The notes under the pieces were generated by a model. That model did not search any database, was not told where the DNA came from, and worked only from the letters and a program-made list of their open reading frames with translations. Both the position numbers and the translations under genes were made by a program. From Thermoproteota archaeon (GTDB lineage: Archaea; Thermoproteota; Bathyarchaeia; RBG-16-48-13; GCA-020355125), in contig JAUPKU010000144.1 in NCBI GenBank assembly GCA_030837285.1, positions 1 through 34,154 on the forward strand: a stretch of DNA of 34,154 nucleotides. The letters run 5' to 3'. The stretch's first letter is position 1; each line of letters begins with the position of its first letter. Below, piece by piece: positions 9,617 to 25,702 of the stretch.

Positions 9617-10152
9617 CTAATGCTTCACTACTTCCAAAATATCTTTTGCAATCGAGTCTGAAATTGTTTCTCTATTTTCATGTGTAACTTCAAGGATATC
9701 AACGTCTTTTCTAGTTTTAATCGCATCTATGACTGGATGATTCATCCTCCAATGAAGGACATCTAGCATTGACTTTGAGCTATCTATAACTTTTATCACT
9801 GCCTTTTGGAAATCTTTCCACTGGGTTCCATCGGGCCGACTTCATCAATTATTACATAATCTGCCTCATTTAATGCTCTATTAATGGCTTCTACCCCTAC
9901 TTCTGAAAGATCTTGAAGATTAACTACGTATTTGCTAATCTTTGGACAAACAAGTTGACTAATGTGAGACAAGATCCCCCTTTTTCCAGATATTAGATCT
10001 ACAATCTTGAATCCAAGTCGAATGTTTCCAAGACGGATTTCTGGACAGATAATTCCGCCTGCGACTAGTCCTCGCTCTCTAAGATTCGTCATCATGTTTT
10101 TCACAACTGTTGTCTTCCCAATGCTTGTAACTCCGATTAGGAATATCTTCAA
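9617..10152 (-). CDS. THEP1-family NTPase, split by a one-base frameshift
   Basis: Two frames together encode a THEP1-type nucleoside triphosphatase, a small P-loop enzyme that hydrolyses NTPs in vitro; its cellular role is unclear. The first frame (10152 to 9796) has the P-loop GVTSIGKTT near residue 7 and the Walker B region YVIIDEVGPMEP, then runs off into ISKRQ and a TGA. The second frame (9799 to 9617) carries the C-terminal half, including HPVIDAIKTRKDVDILEVTHENR. Read in the second frame, the bases before 9799 give KDFQKAVIKVIDSSKS, the expected family sequence. One extra A in the AAA run at 9815-9817 would restore a single protein of about 178 residues, the normal THEP1 length. Assembly error, real mutation and, less likely, GTGA-coupled translation of two chains remain possible. 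trm1 follows 15 bases later. Confidence 0.85.
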
Positions 10153-17464: not shown

Positions 17465-18277
17465 TCAGCTTATCCTTGTTGCTGCTTTTAGTCTACACGT
17501 TCTATCTTTCAGTTCCTCAACAATCTTGTCAATGTTATCAAGATTCTTCTGGACAATATTCACGAGAGAGCTACCGACTATGGCACCTTCAGCACCATTC
17601 CGGATTATTGTTTCTATTTGAGCAGGATTAGAAATTCCAAATCCGACAGCAAGTGGTATTCTCCCTTTAGTATAATGTAGAAAACTCCTTAGTAATTCGA
17701 CTGTGGAATCTGAGATTTCTTCTCGTACTCCAGTGACACCGAAAACGGAGACGAGATAAAGGAAGCCGGAAGTATAGTTGAGGATTTTGAGCAACCGATC
17801 TCTTGGCGTTGAGGGCGAGGCGAGGAAAATTGTATTTATTTCATGATCTCTTGCGATAGTTATGTAGTCACCTGCTTCTTCGATTGGTAAATCAGGAACT
17901 ATTGTGCCGTCTACACCACTATCTTTAGCATCTGCAAAGAAGTTCTTAAGGCCCATCTTGAAGACGGGATTATAGTAGGTGAGTAGTACAATGGGGATAC
18001 TATATTTGGCTTTGATTTTTGAGACTAAAGAGAACACTGTTTGGGGTGTGGTTCCGGATTTGAGCGAACGAGCTGAGGCTGCTTGAATCGTCGGACCGTC
18101 AGCGATCGGATCGGAGAAGGGAATTCCGAGTTCTATAATATCAGCACCGCCTTCCACTAGAGCCTCCACGATTTTACTTGTGTATTTGGGATGTGGGTCT
18201 CCCGCCATTATATATGCTATTAGAGCGCCCTCATTTTCTACTTTTAGATGGTTGAAGACATCTTCTATGACGCTCAT
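17465..18277 (-). CDS. trpA: Tryptophan synthase alpha chain
   Basis: A 270-residue TIM barrel that cleaves indole-3-glycerol phosphate to indole and glyceraldehyde-3-phosphate; indole then passes to TrpB. The catalytic residues are E49 ([13 protein letters not shown]) and D60 (IADGPTIQ), at exactly the numbers of the Salmonella enzyme. The phosphate-binding loops near [12 protein letters not shown] and GAIVGSSLV are present. It is the last gene of the trp operon, and its ATG overlaps the trpB stop in ATGA. Confidence 0.98.
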
Positions 18278-19473
18278 ATCCTCACCCCGGTATAGTCAGC
18301 AACTACCTCAACGTCTTTGTCCCCCCTTCCGGAGAGGGTAACTACAACTATCTGATCGTTCTTCATTGCTTGACATTGCTTCATTACGAAAGCTATTGCA
18401 TGCGACGATTCCAGGGCAGGAAGTATTCCTTCAGTCTTCGAAAGTTCTAGGAATGCGTTTACTGCTTCTTCATCATTGACTGTGATGAAGTGAGCTCTCT
18501 TGACTTCCTTTAGAAAAGAATGCTCAGGTCCAACTCCAGGATAATCTAAGCCAGCGGAGATACTATGGGTATCTTGTATCTGACCCCATTTATCTTGGAG
18601 GACGTATGTGAGCATTCCATGAAATACACCTTCATCTCCGAAGCATATTGAAGCAGCATTCTCTCCAGCTCCCTTTCCTTTCCCTCCAGCTTCTACACCA
18701 TAGAGCTCAACATCCATGTCGTCTAGGAATGGATAGAAGGTGCCTATTGCATTGCTTCCCCCTCCGACACATGCAACAAGCGCATCTGGAAAACGTTTCT
18801 CTTTTAATAGGATCTGTTCTCTGATTTCTTTGCCTATGACGCTTTGCAAATCTCTCACAATTAATGGATACGGGTGGGGACCGACGACCGAACCTATGAG
18901 GTAATACGTAGTCTGGACATTGGTTACCCAATCTCTTAGAGCTTCATTTATAGCATCCTTCAATGTCTTAGAGCCAGATTCTACAGGGTGTACGTCGGCT
19001 CCAAGGAGACGCATTCTGTAGACGTTAAGACGCTGTCGCTTCATATCTTCTGAACCCATGTATATCTCTGCTTTCAATCCGAGAGTGGCACAAGCCATTG
19101 CAGTGGCTACACCATGCTGACCCGCGCCAGTCTCAGCAATCACTCTCTTCTTGCCCATCCTCTTAGCAATAAGCGCTTGACCGAGGGTATTATTAATCTT
19201 ATGAGCGCCTCCATGGGCTAAATCTTCGCGCTTCAAGTATATCTTCGGTCCTCCTACCTTCTTTGTCAAATTCTCCGCAAGGTAAAGGGGCGTTGGTCTG
19301 CCTGCATACTCTGACAGATAATATGAGAGTTCCTTTCTGAAAACTGGATCGTGTTTAAGCATATCATAGGTCTCTGTCAACTCTTCAATAGCAGTCATGA
19401 GTGTTTCTGGAACGAATTTACCCCCGTATTTCCCGTATTTTCCATCAACAGGATATTGACTAAAATTTGTCAT
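18274..19473 (-). CDS. trpB: Tryptophan synthase beta chain (TrpB1 type)
   Basis: A 399-residue pyridoxal-phosphate enzyme that joins indole and serine to make tryptophan. The PLP lysine is K92 in [10 protein letters not shown]; the catalytic acid is E114 in AETGAGQHG; the phosphate loop is [10 protein letters not shown]. The N-terminus ([14 protein letters not shown]) and the length mark the TrpB1 form that pairs with TrpA, rather than the longer stand-alone TrpB2. Translation is coupled: ATGA overlaps join it to trpF upstream and trpA downstream. Confidence 0.99.
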
Positions 19474-20123
19474 AATCCGACTTCCTTTGCGTTTTTAATA
19501 AAATGAAAAACCTTATCAGAATCTTTCCTTCCACGGTGTGATTCAACACCACTTGAAACGTCAACCGCATATGGGCGAACCATTCGTATAGCATCAGCTA
19601 CATTTTCAGGCTTTAACCCGCCAGCGAGGATCAAAGGTTTAGGACTTAGCACCTCTCTAAGCAACCAAGAAAAGTTCCAATCATGAGTTTCCCCTGTTCC
19701 ACCATAACAACCTTGTAAAAAAGTATCAACAAGTAAAGCGTCGAAGAACTTCGCTTCTTCTACTATATCTTCTATAGCACTTTCATCTTTCACTCGAATA
19801 GCTTTTATCAGCTTAAGATGAGGAAACTTCTCGTGAACTGTGGCAATATCTAATTGAGCATCACCATGAATTTGAACAGCATCTGGGCGGACTAGTTCAC
19901 AGAAATCGAGAAGAGAACGTGTGTCGTCTGGAACTGTTACGACAACACCCTCTACAAAAATGGGTATGAGGCGCATCAATCTTTCAGCATTCTTCAAGGA
20001 TAGATTTCGAGGAGAAGTAGGAACGTTCACGATGAATCCGACAGCGTCAGCCCCTCCATTTATAACCGCCATTAAATCTTCTTGACAAGTTATACCGCAG
20101 ATTTTCACTTTAGTCAGTGTCAA
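19470..20123 (-). CDS. trpF: Phosphoribosylanthranilate isomerase
   Basis: A 217-residue TIM barrel catalysing the Amadori rearrangement of N-phosphoribosylanthranilate to CdRP. VKICGIT with the catalytic Cys, [19 protein letters not shown], and the catalytic Asp in [20 protein letters not shown] are visible, as is [10 protein letters not shown] near the C-terminus. Two starts are possible: TTG at 20121-20123, overlapping trpC by 14 bases, or GTG at 20106-20108, two bases after the trpC stop codon. Neither has a convincing Shine-Dalgarno. It shares an ATGA overlap with trpB. Confidence 0.97.
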
Positions 20124-20895
20124 AACTATTCACAAGCTCCCTTACCTTCGCTTCAATATCCGATGAACTCATGATTGAGGAGCCTACGAGAAAAGCTCTA
20201 ACACCATATTTGAAGAGATTACGAACGTCAGAAGCATTCTCCACACCACTCTCACTTACTATGATTTTGCCTTTTGTAGATGAATTCTCCATAATTTCCT
20301 GAGTTGTCTTCAGGTCAACTTTTAGAGTTCGTAGGTCTCGATTATTTATCCCCACGAGGTCAGCATCACTATCCAAGGATGAAGAGAATTCTCTAAGCGA
20401 ATGAGATTCCAAAAGTACTTCAAGATTCTTTGAGTGAACGTACTCAATCATGGTATTGACATCACATTCGCAGCGATCTCGGTCAAATAATGTCTTTATC
20501 AAAAGAACAGCATTAGCGCCAATTCTAGAGGCTGCATCAACCTGCACGAAGCTTACTATGAAGTCTTTCATAAGTAAGGGAAGACTGACCTGTCTTCTCA
20601 CCTTAATGAAATAGTCTAAAGAACCATGGAAGTAGTTAGGCTCAGTCAACACTGAAATTCCAGTTGAGCCCCCACTCTGCATAGCCAATGAAACTTTGTC
20701 GACATCCATACTCTCTTTTATTACGCCTAGAGAAGGTGAAGCTGCTTTAACCTCAGTTATAATCGGAACTCTCTCGCATCCTAGGATAGCTTCTCTGAGA
20801 CTCCGCATGTTTGAAATTGACTCTTCGACGTAATAGTAGCCTTCATTAACCCTTCGCTTTGCGTCTTCAGCGAATCTGTCTAGTAGGTCAACCAT
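20110..20895 (-). CDS. trpC: Indole-3-glycerol phosphate synthase
   Basis: A TIM barrel of about 261 residues that closes the indole ring by decarboxylating CdRP. Active-site segments follow the Sulfolobus enzyme: ITEVKAASPS (Lys), LLMKDFIV (Lys), LLIKTLF, LEVLLESHS (Glu), LVGINNRDL (Asn) and VSESGV (Ser). The ATG at 20893-20895 is preferred over the GTG/TTG-type start 51 bases upstream, because it gives a normal N-terminus and an 8-base overlap with trpD, and it has a GAGGAGGT about 11 bases upstream. The longer version would overlap trpD by 59 bases. Confidence 0.97.
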   Translation of the reverse strand: MVDLLDRFAEDAKRRVNEGYYYVEESISNMRSLREAILGCERVPIITEVKAASPSLGVIKESMDVDKVSLAMQSGGSTGISVLTEPNYFHGSLDYFIKVRRQVSLPLLMKDFIVSFVQVDAASRIGANAVLLIKTLFDRDRCECDVNTMIEYVHSKNLEVLLESHSLREFSSSLDSDADLVGINNRDLRTLKVDLKTTQEIMENSSTKGKIIVSESGVENASDVRNLFKYGVRAFLVGSSIMSSSDIEAKVRELVNSFDTD

Positions 20896-21940
20896 ACCTA
20901 GATTCGACCTCCTCAAACGTAGCAATATCTCCACAAGCCTTGACAAGTTCTCTTAGCTTCCCGTAAGCTGCACCGCTTTCGATGGATTTTCTGGCTATCT
21001 CAAGGCCTTCATTGAAGTCTGATGCCTTGCCACCAACTATGACACCTGCAGCGGCATTAACTAGGACAATATCTTTTTTCGATCCAGCAATCGAATTGTT
21101 CAGAATCTTGTAGCTGAGCTCCGTATTGTATTCTACACTGCCACCTTGGATCTCCTCAATCTTGGCTTTCTTTAAGCCAAGAGATTCTGGAGAAACATTT
21201 AGGAGAGCGATATTTCCCTCACTCAGCCAGGCAATCACGGTTCTTCCAGTGATTGTAATCTCATCAAGACCATCAAGCCCGTGGACAATCATAGCCTCTT
21301 TGCAACCAAGCTTCCTCAGAACCAAGGACAAAGGTTCCACAAGGCTCTCATCATACACTCCTAGAATCTGCGTATCTGCACCAGCAGGATTCGTCAAGGG
21401 TCCAAGAATGTTGAAAATAGTTCTAACACCCGTTTCTCTACGCGGCGCGGAAACATTCCTCATCGCCGGATGGAAGGAAGGCGCGAATATAAATCCTATG
21501 CCAGAATCTTCTATCGTTTTTTCAACAATCTGTGGATCAGAGTTTAGGTTTAAGCCAAGTCTCTCAAGTACATCTGCACTACCGCATGCACTTGTGATTG
21601 AGCGATTCCCATGCTTAGCGATATTAACTCCTGCACCAGCCACTACGAAGGCAGCTATTGTACTGATATTGAAAGTATTCATTCGGTCTCCTCCTGTTCC
21701 ACATGTGTCAAGCAGTCTTCCATTTACTATAGGGTGAATTCTACGACAGAATTTCCTCATTGCAGTAGCGAAAGCTGCAATTTCGTCTGTAGTTTCACCT
21801 TTCATCCTAAGAGCAATTAAGAGCGCAGCAATCTGTGCGTTTGAAGCTTTACCTGACATAACCTCCTCCATTGCATTATCTGCCTCATCAAAGGATAAGT
21901 CTCTCCTCTCAACGAGTTTTTGAATACATTCCTTGATCAT
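20888..21940 (-). CDS. trpD: Anthranilate phosphoribosyltransferase
   Basis: A 350-residue enzyme that transfers phosphoribose from PRPP to anthranilate. The PRPP-binding motif is DTCGTGGDRMNTFNIS, followed by the anthranilate-site segments KHGNRSITSACGSADVLE and FAPSFHPAMRNV, and the Mg-binding GLDGLDEIT. The N-terminal helical domain (1-70, with SNAQIAALLIALRMKG) is complete. It is stand-alone, not fused to TrpG. Its ATG overlaps the trpG stop in ATGA. Confidence 0.98.
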   Translation of the reverse strand: MIKECIQKLVERRDLSFDEADNAMEEVMSGKASNAQIAALLIALRMKGETTDEIAAFATAMRKFCRRIHPIVNGRLLDTCGTGGDRMNTFNISTIAAFVVAGAGVNIAKHGNRSITSACGSADVLERLGLNLNSDPQIVEKTIEDSGIGFIFAPSFHPAMRNVSAPRRETGVRTIFNILGPLTNPAGADTQILGVYDESLVEPLSLVLRKLGCKEAMIVHGLDGLDEITITGRTVIAWLSEGNIALLNVSPESLGLKKAKIEEIQGGSVEYNTELSYKILNNSIAGSKKDIVLVNAAAGVIVGGKASDFNEGLEIARKSIESGAAYGKLRELVKACGDIATFEEVESRYG

Positions 21941-22527
21941 CTTTTAGAGCCTCCGTCGATGAAATTTTTCATAATCTTCTTTCCCTCGCTAGTAAGAATC
22001 GATTCTGGGTGAAATTGAATTCCATCTATCGGATAGATTACGTGTCTAATGCCCATGACTTCTCCATCATCATGCGAGTAAGCTGACACCTCAAGGCAGC
22101 TGGGAAGCGATTTCTCATCGCAAACTAAGGAATGGTAACGAGTCGCAGTAAAGGGGTTAGGAATGCCCCTGAAGATCCCTTTACAATCATGGTGAATCTG
22201 GCTTGTCTTTCCGTGCATGAGTTGTTTCGCCCTTACTATCTTCCCGCCAAAAACATGAGCTATTCCTTGATGCCCAAGACATACTCCTAGAGTAGGAGTC
22301 TTAACGCTTAGACTCTGTAGAATCTCCGAGCAAACGCCGAAAAATCTAGATTCTTCGGGGTTACCTGGACCTGGAGAGATTATTATTCTATCTGGTTTTA
22401 ACTTCAGTGCTTGTCCAGATGTGATCTTGTCATTTCGGTATACAATTGGTCTTCCTCCCAGTTCTCCTATATACTGTACGAGATTGTAGACGAACGAGTC
22501 ATAATTGTCGATTACAAGCGTCTTCAT
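21937..22527 (-). CDS. trpG: Anthranilate synthase glutaminase subunit
   Basis: A 196-residue class I glutamine amidotransferase that delivers ammonia to TrpE. The catalytic triad is C83 (TLGVCLGHQ), H173 and E175 (IQFHPES). VIDNYDSFVYNLVQYIGELG at the start and ISPGPGNPEES near residue 50 are typical of TrpG/PabA. Its direct coupling to trpE (ATGA overlap) and place in the trp operon favour TrpG, though such subunits can also serve PabB. Confidence 0.98.
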   Translation of the reverse strand: MKTLVIDNYDSFVYNLVQYIGELGGRPIVYRNDKITSGQALKLKPDRIIISPGPGNPEESRFFGVCSEILQSLSVKTPTLGVCLGHQGIAHVFGGKIVRAKQLMHGKTSQIHHDCKGIFRGIPNPFTATRYHSLVCDEKSLPSCLEVSAYSHDDGEVMGIRHVIYPIDGIQFHPESILTSEGKKIMKNFIDGGSKR

Positions 22528-23931
22528 GTCTTTCGCTCTCCTGAGTCTTCTAGTGCTCTGATTAGAGCTTGGGCTTTATGATCAGTCTCTATCCACTCAT
22601 TTTCTGGAACGGAATCAGCCACAATTCCTGCACCAACTTGGATGTGAGCCTTTTTCCCATCCAGTACAAGAGTTCTTATAGTAATTGCGAAGTCAGAGTT
22701 GCCATTATACGAAAAGTAGCCAACAGCGCCAGCATAGGGTCCTCTTCTCATAGGTTCTAATTCTTCGATAATTTCCATAGCCCTTACTTTTGGCGCTCCA
22801 GATACTGTTCCAGCTGGGAAGACAGCTTCTAACGAATCGAAGCTGTCACAATCGGCTCTCAATCTACCTACGACTCTTGAGACAATGTGCTGGACGTGAC
22901 TGTATTGCTGTACCCTCATGAATTGGGGTACACTAACGCTTTCAAATTCGGAGACTTTCCCTATGTCGTTTCTTGCTAGATCAAGCAGCATTGTGTGCTC
23001 CGCTCTCTCCTTTGGATCTTCTAACAATTCTTTTGTCAAAGCCTGATTTTTTCTAGAATTGCTAACGTGAGGCCGAGTACCCGCTATAGGAAAAGTCTCT
23101 ACAGTTTTTCCTTCGAGTCTTACAAGCATCTCCGGGCTAGAGCCTATTATCTGCCGCTTATCCATCTTAAGGAAGTACATGTAAGGTGAAGGGTTTATTC
23201 TTCTGAGGGATTCATAAAAGGTAGTCATGTCCCCTTTCATAGTAAAATCGAAGCGCTTTGAAAGGACAACTTGGAGTATATCCCCTGTGGTAATGTAGTC
23301 TTTTGCTTTTAGAATAGCATCTTCAAAGTCTTCTTGGGTGATGTTTGGCTTAGGTTCAGTATGATTGGTTGTGGAATGATCTACGCGATTCTTCATTAAT
23401 TCTTTGATTTCAGTGAATCTATCTTTGGTGTAATAATAGTAAAAAGCTTCCTTGTTTCTGTGATCAAAGACTATACCATCATCGTACATTCCGAGTTCAA
23501 TGTCTGGGAAGTTGGAGTCATCAAAGGATTTTTCTGGGAGTTTCTCCCAGTAGCGGACAGTATCATAAGAGATGTAGCCAACAGCTCCTCCGACGAATCT
23601 AAGTCCTTTATAGGGTAGATAATGCTCAGTGAAAATCTTTTTTATTGCTTGAAAAGGGGAAGTAACATCTTCATTGATGCTATTTCCTTCCACTTGGGTA
23701 GTTAGGTTATCTGCATGAATTTCAATAGTCGATTGTGGGTCAAACCCTATGAAAGAGTAGCGGGCTAGTTTTCTTGGTCCTTCTATTGACTCAAGTAGAT
23801 AGGCGTATTTGTATTCGCTATAAATCTTTGAAAAGATTTCAAAGGGTTGATGGGAGAAGGGAAATCTTCTGACGTTTAATTTGTGTTGCTGCTGTATTGC
23901 ATTATTTTCTTGGCCAAAGGCGATACCCCAT
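22524..23931 (-). CDS. trpE: Anthranilate synthase component I, with apparent +1 frame change near its 5' end
   Basis: It makes anthranilate from chorismate with TrpG. The chorismate-binding domain is intact (PSPYMYFLKM, IGSSPEMLVRLEG, GTRPHVS, LLDLARNDIGKV, FPAGTVSGAPKVRAMEII). The first canonical start in this frame is GTG 23691-23693 (389 residues), but the frame upstream encodes the standard N-terminal domain: LNVRRFPFSHQPFEIF, then YAYLLESIEGPRKLARYSF, which includes the LLES motif of tryptophan feedback inhibition. That open frame runs back to a TAG at 23943-23945 without ATG, GTG or TTG. An ATG at 23929-23931 with GAGGAG six to eight bases upstream begins a 9-codon ORF one base out of frame; a +1 shift at CTT TGG (23914-23919) joins the two into about 467 residues, a normal size. 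Alternatives are an assembly indel or a non-canonical start. Identity is certain; the 5' structure is not. Confidence 0.95.
23902..23931 (-). other. trpE leader ORF / candidate +1 frameshift site at a Trp codon
   Basis: The ORF reads MGYRLWPRK and stop TAA. Its Shine-Dalgarno AGAGGAGAT (23936-23944) has ideal spacing. The only Trp codon (23914-23916) lies in CTT TGG C, preceded by GGGGTAT; the E. coli prfB site is AGGGGGTAT then CTT TGA C. Slipping from CTT to TTT places the ribosome in the trpE frame (GGC CAA GAA AAT...). By analogy, scarce charged tRNA-Trp would stall on TGG and favour the shift, raising TrpE. This is inference from sequence shape; a one-base assembly error would explain the layout too. 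Confidence 0.4.
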
Positions 23932-23964
23932 TCAGATCTCCTCTATTGCCCTCTTCGTACGTTG

Positions 23965-24005
23965 ATGTAATATTTAAGGATATAGTGTACATAAATATAC
24001 ATTTA
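23965..24005 (-). promoter_or_regulatory. trp operon promoter with TRP-box-like operator
   Basis: On the minus strand TGTATATTTATGTACA (23986-24001) contains a TATA box (TATATTTA) flanked by TGTATA and TGTACA, one helical turn apart. TGTACA is the known binding consensus (TRP box) of the archaeal repressor TrpY of Methanothermobacter, so repression by a TrpY-like protein is plausible. Transcription would start near 23971, leaving about 40 bases before the leader ATG at 23931, with the Shine-Dalgarno inside. No trpY gene is in the window. A second AT-rich element (CTTAAATATT, about 23968-23977) lies closer to the gene. Confidence 0.5.
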
Positions 24006-24103
24006 TTGTGAAAGAAAAGGTTTTTCTCTAGTAATTTTAAAAGACAATCGATGGCCTTTGAAAATTCTGGAAGAAAAAACATTGGGTAAAAACTAATCCT
24101 GAC

Positions 24104-25702
24104 TCACAGAAGTTTAGACATATAAGGTCCTGAATCCTCATATTTCAATTGGCGATAGTATTCCTTAACTCCCAGACCGCTTGTAACCAGAACCTTCTTC
24201 GCATCAAAGCGTTCCCTTCCCATCTTCTCTGCCTCATCAAGCAGCATCCTTCCATATCCTCTATGCTGCCATTTTTCGTAGGTCGGTTTTACACCCACAC
24301 TTACTAAAGGACCATAGACGTGAAGCTCTCTGACAATTACCGTCTTATCTTCATTAACTTCCCCTCGCTGCCCATTTTCTACGGGAACGCGTAGTCTTAG
24401 AAAACCAATCAAGATGTTCTGTTTGACATCTTCGTAGGAGAGGAAGACTTCTATTCCATTTGAAGCTTCGTACTCTAATCTTCGGAGCTTCACATTCTCC
24501 AAGGCTGGATCCACATCAAGTTTTGCCTTTGAAAGGCCAACTTCCCTACAGCGTATACAATTACATCTTTTCCCAAGAACTTGTAGGTGATCCCATACAA
24601 CCTCCCTCAAATTACCCATTCTTGGGCCTGCAACGATTAGTGGGGCTGGAATGTCTCGCGTGATTCTTTTTATTCTAGCGAATCTGGGAACATATTGGCT
24701 CTTAGCATCGACAAGCAGTTGAATGAGTTCTTCATCAGTTGGAGGCTGATATTCTCCTTTCACCCACATGTCGTAAAGTTTTGTCCCCTCGAGTACGAGC
24801 GTTGGGTAGATTTTCAATTCGTCAGGCTTAAACCTTGAGTCACTGAATAATGTTCTAAAAACTTCCAAGTCTTTTTTAAGGTTGGAACCCGGTAGACCAG
24901 GCATAATGTGGTAGCACACTTTTAGTCCAGCATCTTTCAGAGTCCTTGTAGCACGGGCGACATCATCAACCGTGTGACCTCTCCCGATTAACTTGTATAC
25001 GTCGTCGAACACTGTTTGGACGCCAAGTTCTACTCGAGTGACTCCCATTCGAAGCATATCTTTCACATGTTTTTCAGCAGCCCAATCAGGTCTAGTCTCG
25101 AATGTTATGCCAACATTTTTTATCGCGCTTTTTTCGGTGAGCCTCTTTGCTTCTTCCAAGTCTTTGGAGTGCACGTCTGTTATTGCGTCTAGGCAGCCTT
25201 TGATGAAGTACTCTTGATACTCTACTGGTGTTGAGGGGAATGTTCCACCCATTACTATTAGCTCTGTTTTGTTCACGATATGGCCTATGGTTCTCAGCTG
25301 ATTTATTCTGCATTTCACTTGAAGGTATGGGTCAAAATTGTTTTGGATACCCCTCATCGTAGCCGGCTCTTTACCAGTATAAGATGATGGGACATTGTAT
25401 TTTGTTCCGCCGGGGCAATAAGCGCATTTCCCATGAGGACAGTCGAAGGGCTTCGTCATAGCGGCTATAACGTTGACGCCTGAGAGACTTCTGATGGGCT
25501 TTAGCTGCAGAAGAGGGCGAATTTTCTCTTTTTCTTCGTCTGTTGCAAATGCAAGAACTTCAGAGTTAGGAGGGATTCTTGTCAAGCCATATTTTTTTGA
25601 AGTCTGAAGCTTTAGATTGTCAACACCTCTACCGATGTCTCCGACGAGAAGCTTTTCAATCACTTCTCGGCAAGCTCTTTCGTTAAGGATGCTATTCCTC
25701 AT
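24104..25702 (-). CDS. elp3: Archaeal Elp3, tRNA uridine-34 modifying radical SAM acetyltransferase
   Basis: A 532-residue Elp3. In archaea it works without the other Elongator subunits and installs a carboxymethyl-type group on U34 of tRNA, using acetyl-CoA and SAM. The radical SAM cluster is C-x4-C-x2-C at C88, C93 and C96 (DCPHGKCAYCPGG). KVCYHIMPGLPGS and DELKIYPTLVLEGTKLYD are conserved Elp3 segments. CNCIRCREVG is the zinc-binding motif, and the C-terminal GNAT domain has the acetyl-CoA loop HRGYGRMLLDEAE and ends YRQLKYEDSGPYMSKLL. ATG at 25702 is preferred over the adjacent TTG because AGGTG lies seven bases upstream. The 205 bases up to the S30e stop probably carry its promoter. Confidence 0.97.
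   Translation of the reverse strand: MRNSILNERACREVIEKLLVGDIGRGVDNLKLQTSKKYGLTRIPPNSEVLAFATDEEKEKIRPLLQLKPIRSLSGVNVIAAMTKPFDCPHGKCAYCPGGTKYNVPSSYTGKEPATMRGIQNNFDPYLQVKCRINQLRTIGHIVNKTELIVMGGTFPSTPVEYQEYFIKGCLDAITDVHSKDLEEAKRLTEKSAIKNVGITFETRPDWAAEKHVKDMLRMGVTRVELGVQTVFDDVYKLIGRGHTVDDVARATRTLKDAGLKVCYHIMPGLPGSNLKKDLEVFRTLFSDSRFKPDELKIYPTLVLEGTKLYDMWVKGEYQPPTDEELIQLLVDAKSQYVPRFARIKRITRDIPAPLIVAGPRMGNLREVVWDHLQVLGKRCNCIRCREVGLSKAKLDVDPALENVKLRRLEYEASNGIEVFLSYEDVKQNILIGFLRLRVPVENGQRGEVNEDKTVIVRELHVYGPLVSVGVKPTYEKWQHRGYGRMLLDEAEKMGRERFDAKKVLVTSGLGVKEYYRQLKYEDSGPYMSKLL

Follow-up and report, generated by a model that had tools for sequence, protein, structure and literature searches.

A probable +1 frameshift at a tryptophan codon at the start of archaeal trpE

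The bacterial gene prfB, encoding release factor 2, is autoregulated by a +1 frameshift at CTT TGA C, with a Shine-Dalgarno (SD)-like element 3 nucleotides (nt) upstream of the P-site codon, and in Escherichia coli the short open reading frame (ORF) trpL, which contains Trp codons and lies ahead of trpE, senses Trp-tRNA and acts by attenuation. Here we describe the start of trpE in a window of 34,154 nt, contig JAUPKU010000144.1 of a Thermoproteota archaeon, and in its relatives; over much of the phylum this gene seems readable only through a one-base skip at a Trp codon. Among sense codons, a +1 site is known in yeast Ty1 (CUU AGG C; PMC5009743) and Trp depletion causes frameshifting at UGG in human cells (PMC8942854), and a 2016 review gave no known example of a hungry-codon shift serving a starvation-specific product (PMC5009743). 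A 2021 review of archaeal recoding listed one demonstrated cellular frameshift, the -1 event of S. solfataricus fucA1 (PMC8211752). Hardly any Crenarchaeota carry one of the two known archaeal trp regulators, and their use of a third regulator, or of an unknown mechanism, has been suggested (PMC6737238). Within the open-access literature covered here, the text of a genome-wide frameshift survey mentioned neither trp nor anthranilate, and earlier reports may exist elsewhere.

The leader ORF and the trpE frame in the window

The trpE frame of the window, on the minus strand, was stop-free from 23942 to 22524 behind a TAG at 23945-23943, and encoded a complete anthranilate synthase component I by both Pfam domains (Anth_synt_I_N starting at residue 31 and Chorismate_bind at 8e-94). 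An earlier sequence-only reading of this DNA had recognised the standard N-terminal domain and had seen no start codon between it and the upstream TAG, and both observations held, the first ATG, GTG or TTG of the frame being at 23693, within the conserved domain. The same reading had pointed to an SD-led ATG opening a 9-codon ORF with one Trp codon, from which a slip from CTT to TTT would enter the trpE frame. This was borne out on the minus strand, where the ATG at 23931-23929, preceded by TAGAGGAGATCTGA, opens such an ORF and the move from CTT (23919-23917) to TTT (23918-23916) is an exact +1 step into trpE. The features concerned are as follows.

23936..23944, minus strand: SD sequence of the leader ATG, AGAGGAGAT, with an upstream duplex of -12.0 kcal/mol against an assumed archaeal anti-SD
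23902..23931, minus strand: zero-frame leader ORF, ATG GGG TAT CGC CTT TGG CCA AGA AAA TAA (MGYRLWPRK*), read from the sequence and its relatives
23923..23928, minus strand: putative internal SD-like element GGGTAT (RGGNAT class), 3 nt 5' of the P-site codon, from its invariant G and anti-SD pairing
23913..23919, minus strand: predicted shift site CTT TGG C, with CTT in the P site, TGG (Trp) in the A site and TTT GGC as the +1 frame, from relatives and opposing stops
22524..23918, minus strand: trpE in the +1 frame, anthranilate synthase component I, from Pfam domains and the stop-free frame

It is highly probable, in our judgement, that production of TrpE requires a programmed +1 frameshift of the ribosome close to the start of the message, with the Trp codon as the slow, regulatory codon. 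Comparison among relatives strongly supports four points: that ribosomes initiate at the ATG, that the trpE frame is offset by +1, where the shift takes place, and that translation continues in the trpE frame from there. The geometry of the slip, its stimulation by the internal SD and its gating by Trp-tRNA are parts that we infer.

Conservation of the offset and the place of the shift

The class to which the window belongs, probably Bathyarchaeia, was sampled as 257 genomes, 117 of them with trpE, and 111 trpE loci were examined. The pattern [AG]TG-N10-TTTGG was found at the trpE start in 104 of these 111 loci, at the +1 offset in 103 of the 104, a regularity much greater than chance would give, and the offset was also found in 38 loci of 11 further families outside the class. 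The whole layout of ATG, SD-like RGGNGAT, NTT TGG and trpE at +1 was thus present in 141/156 loci (one of them, L176, read by eye), covering 21 of the 24 alignable GTDB families of the phylum, and included the window's own family relatives G001 (ATGGGGAATCGTGTTTGGC), G002 (ATGGGGAATCGTGTTTGGT) and G003 (ATGGGGTATCCTATTTGGT), all at the +1 offset. Relatives were checked for a version with one base fewer, or for a plain start lacking TGG; the offset was kept, and where the site was lost an ordinary in-frame start was found, all 15 loci without the site having an in-frame ATG, GTG or TTG, with L110, where TAG replaces TGG, as the odd one. Among eight more divergent families only f63 had the site, which was missing from the Thermoprotei-like ones, and the Sulfolobaceae-like and Thermoproteaceae-like families showed ordinary trpE starts, often within an operon.

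Stop codons on either side place the change of frame. In 14 loci a stop of the trpE frame stands immediately 5' of TTT, so that the ribosome must remain in the zero frame at NTT, and in three loci (L148, L149 and L255) a zero-frame stop stands immediately 3' of TGG. Locus L255 carries both (ATG GGT GAT TTA GTT TGG TAA, with TAG before TTT), and its frames therefore overlap only at GTT TGG. In the ATGAGG genomes a TGA of the trpE frame overlaps the ATG itself, which leaves no upstream feed into that frame. These opposing stops strongly support confinement of the predicted shift to NTT TGG.

From TTT to the TrpE anchor, the trpE frame of the class held 0 stops in 1428 codons, and the other frames 49/1325 and 77/1325. 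Substitutions between relatives fell on third positions of the trpE frame in 280 cases vs 138 and 175 on the others, counts which give a direction and not a p-value since the pairs are non-independent. The site occurred in 103 class loci, 60 of them with no in-frame ATG, GTG or TTG and 79 with no in-frame ATG. As a control, prephenate dehydratase (PDT) genes of the class were taken at 30 loci: 28 had an in-frame start, hit-boundary effects explained the two that did not, and the same device was not found at these phenylalanine genes. A check of histidine genes was weak, with hisD as query and only 17 usable loci. Since the SD-like GGTG gives a decoy in-frame GTG in many genomes, annotated starts of trpE are probably wrong throughout the phylum.

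Shift-site anatomy, proposed mechanism and rival explanations

In 140 loci with TGG in the A site, the P-site codon was CTT (67), GTT (44), ATT (23) or TTT (6) and the +1 codon was GGC (86), GGA (35), GGT (10) or GGG (9). The G at -9 from TTT was invariant in all 140 and was not imposed by the search. It belongs to an SD-like element, RGGNGAT/RGGNAT or GGTGAT, which ends with codon 3, 3 nt before NTT; the sequence-only reading had placed the G run three bases further from CTT than in prfB, and this distance was not upheld once the element was read in this form. Predicted pairing of codons 2-3 to the archaeal anti-SD averaged -7.75 kcal/mol, vs -5.0 after shuffling of their bases, the anti-SD being assumed as the 16S 3' end was sought in the family and not found. 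A TATA box precedes the ATG by 21-23 nt in families f29 and f58, where a probably leaderless message would begin with that ATG itself. That the element is retained in such leaderless-looking messages speaks for its taking part in the shift. The zero-frame leader stop came at a median of 36 nt after NTT.

Two variants of the site were seen. In family f35 (L150-L153 and L182) the start and the shift codon are only two codons apart (ATG TGC CTT TGG C) and a G-rich element lies 5' of the ATG, such that one SD could serve initiation and shifting alike. Genome G184 has two trpE copies, L106 with a plain in-frame ATG and L110, whose site reads CTT TAG C instead of CTT TGG C and which, by analogy with prfB, would shift constitutively.

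In the mechanism we propose, ribosomes would initiate at the ATG (23931 in the window) and the RGGNGAT of codons 2-3 would pair with the 16S tail when NTT is in the P site and TGG in the A site. With Trp-tRNA abundant, TGG would be decoded and translation would stop at the nearby zero-frame stop, giving little TrpE. With Trp-tRNA scarce, the ribosome would pause and slip +1 onto TTT, GGN would be read as Gly and TrpE would be made, the shifted ribosome needing no Trp at that codon. TrpE, and probably the whole operon through translational coupling, would rise when tryptophan is low. Gating by charged tRNA-Trp is suggested because TGG is invariant and the gene is trpE.

Several points weigh against this account. 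The evidence is a comparison of sequences throughout; the P-site codon varies, and the tRNAs reading GTT and ATT would re-pair poorly on TTT; a putative transcriptional operator seems to be present too in the window's own family; a GTG stands in the trpE frame in f29, f58 and others; and TGG overlaps both the slip target TTT and the +1 Gly codon GGN, so slip geometry might account for the invariance of TGG. The last point leads to the best-surviving alternative, in which the +1 shift at NTT TGG is constitutive and TGG is kept for the TTT slip and GGN and not as a Trp sensor, as could also be argued from L110, which has TAG there and would still shift. We regard this as unlikely. If the slip were constitutive, many different codons should be tolerated in the A site, as with TGA C in prfB and AGG C in Ty1, whereas the shift-requiring loci had TGG in all but L110 and no other sense codon, a conservation partly built in as TTTGG was required by the search, with the site-less loci having in-frame starts. 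Moreover, the codon specifies the very amino acid that the pathway makes, and it stands in the first gene of Trp biosynthesis.

The GTG codons bear on a second alternative, that the short ORF is a separate leader peptide and TrpE begins independently at ATA, CTA, CTG or TTA, or at an in-frame GTG or TTG. An in-frame GTG is indeed found at -9 in f29, f58 and several others, and G001 and G002 have GTG and G003 TTG. We nevertheless hold an independent start to be very improbable: in 60 of the 103 class loci the trpE frame offers no ATG, GTG or TTG, the anchor codon varies (CTG, CTA, ATA, CCA, GTA), the stop-free, codon-biased sequence begins exactly at the shift site, and in f29 and f58 the predicted transcript start coincides with the ATG and not with the GTG. 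Variation of the anchor codon, together with coding constraint beginning at the site, led us to reject a non-canonical start in particular.

Restoration of the frame by transcriptional slippage has almost nothing left in its favour, as the GGGG of ATGGGG occurs in about half of the class genomes but no such run exists in the ATGAGG genomes, three T are too few, and the opposing stops locate the change at NTT TGG. A one-base assembly indel or fresh frameshift mutation in the window, which the sequence-only reading had named as the simplest rival and which a draft metagenome-assembled genome of 281 contigs with a broken-looking THEP1 gene might suggest, was ruled out for practical purposes because the identical +1 offset recurs in 141 loci (103 in the class and 38 in 11 further families), single-contig genomes among them.

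Operon context, history and comparison with known systems

Upstream and downstream of the shift site, the window holds three further features.

17465..22527, minus strand: remaining trp genes, trpG-D-C-F-B-A, from gene order and overlaps
23986..24001, minus strand: TRP-box-like candidate operator TGTATATTTATGTACA (TGTAYA-N4-TGTACA), the box being present in 6/6 family members and its function putative
23971..23977, minus strand: TATA-like box TTAAATA, from reading of the sequence

The ORFs of the window give the minus-strand order trpE-G-D-C-F-B-A with all neighbouring genes overlapping, and these overlaps probably couple translation of the downstream trp genes to that of trpE. By the usual archaeal spacing, transcription is predicted to start near 23948. 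All six family members (the window and L002-L006) have a TGTAYA-N4-TGTACA box 5' of the TATA box of trpE; it resembles the TRP box known for TrpY, a methanogen regulator, and transcriptional and translational trp control may be combined in this family. No terminator-like site was found in 23800-24200 of the window and an Rfam scan for an RNA leader element or attenuator gave no match near threshold, and on these two results such an element was ruled out. Elsewhere in the window (9617-10152), a THEP1-type nucleotidase is seemingly split over two frames, by an indel or as a decayed gene.

On a tree of the TrpE N-terminus, which has few columns and weak support, the site label needed at least 8 changes (5 forced by well-supported branches) vs 14.5 for shuffled labels, and this small number suggests a widespread site with several losses. 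Losses were seen in L007 and L069, which read straight in frame, and in G004 and G006, which have a plain ATG. Wider use of the motif, beyond trpE, was not supported: of the further matches examined, most fell by chance within other genes or in other frames and one was a fragment of trpE, and extra matches are expected since a reversed control pattern matched in roughly 15% of class genomes. In f6 the further matches were trpE relics ahead of trpD.

Four loci (L213, L221, L229 and L230, in G012, G020, G030 and G031) have lost trpE and trpG from the operon start and keep the leader ATGGGGTATAGACTTTGG, or a near copy, directly 5' of trpD, as a relic or a reused leader. Locus L251 (G109) is a second, broken trpE fragment in which the zero frame is continuous into TrpE (MGNRLWSTNNHPNQPIEVFSKL), as if fused by one base.

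We think it likely that this is an ancient archaeal principle, in which a hungry Trp codon at the trpE start meters the trp operon through +1 slippage, conserved over Bathyarchaeia-like, Nitrososphaeria-like and other lineages as an unrecognised Trp regulator where TrpY/Tar is missing. If true, tryptophan shortage would directly switch on tryptophan's own synthesis. The site is widespread, and would include cultured ammonia-oxidising archaea if f29 and f58, which look like Nitrosopumilaceae relatives, are what they appear.

The locus shares with programmed +1 sites a conserved +1 offset and a conserved shift-prone site inside a two-frame overlap, and with amino-acid sensors a conserved codon that matches the pathway product. 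Like prfB, it has an early site, an SD-like element just 5' (about 3 nt from the P-site codon, with the anti-SD assumed), a CTT to TTT step of +1, and a codon in the A site that is predicted to be slow, its reader being limited by the product of the gene or its pathway. Unlike prfB, where the A-site codon is the stop TGA in a release factor gene, the A-site codon is the sense Trp codon TGG, with TAG in one copy only, and the gene is trpE, in archaea, encoding a non-homologous protein. As in trpL, a short ORF that precedes trpE and includes a Trp codon would sense Trp-tRNA, but no terminator was found between leader and trpE (23800-24200) and there is no separate trpE start; the leader ORF overlaps trpE and would be fused to it by the shift. 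With the yeast Ty1/ABP140 sites it has in common CUU, a slowly decoded sense codon and then GGC in the new frame, whereas those codons are slow through a rare tRNA and not through amino acid shortage, have no SD element and, in Ty1, serve a transposon. S. solfataricus fucA1 is likewise a recoded cellular gene of the same archaeal phylum, but it encodes a sugar hydrolase, its shift is -1 and uses an A-rich site, and the lineage concerned is narrow (PMC8211752). Finally, as in hungry-codon frameshifting, starvation for the A-site amino acid would drive the shift at trpE, whereas the shifts described in those cases are accidental.
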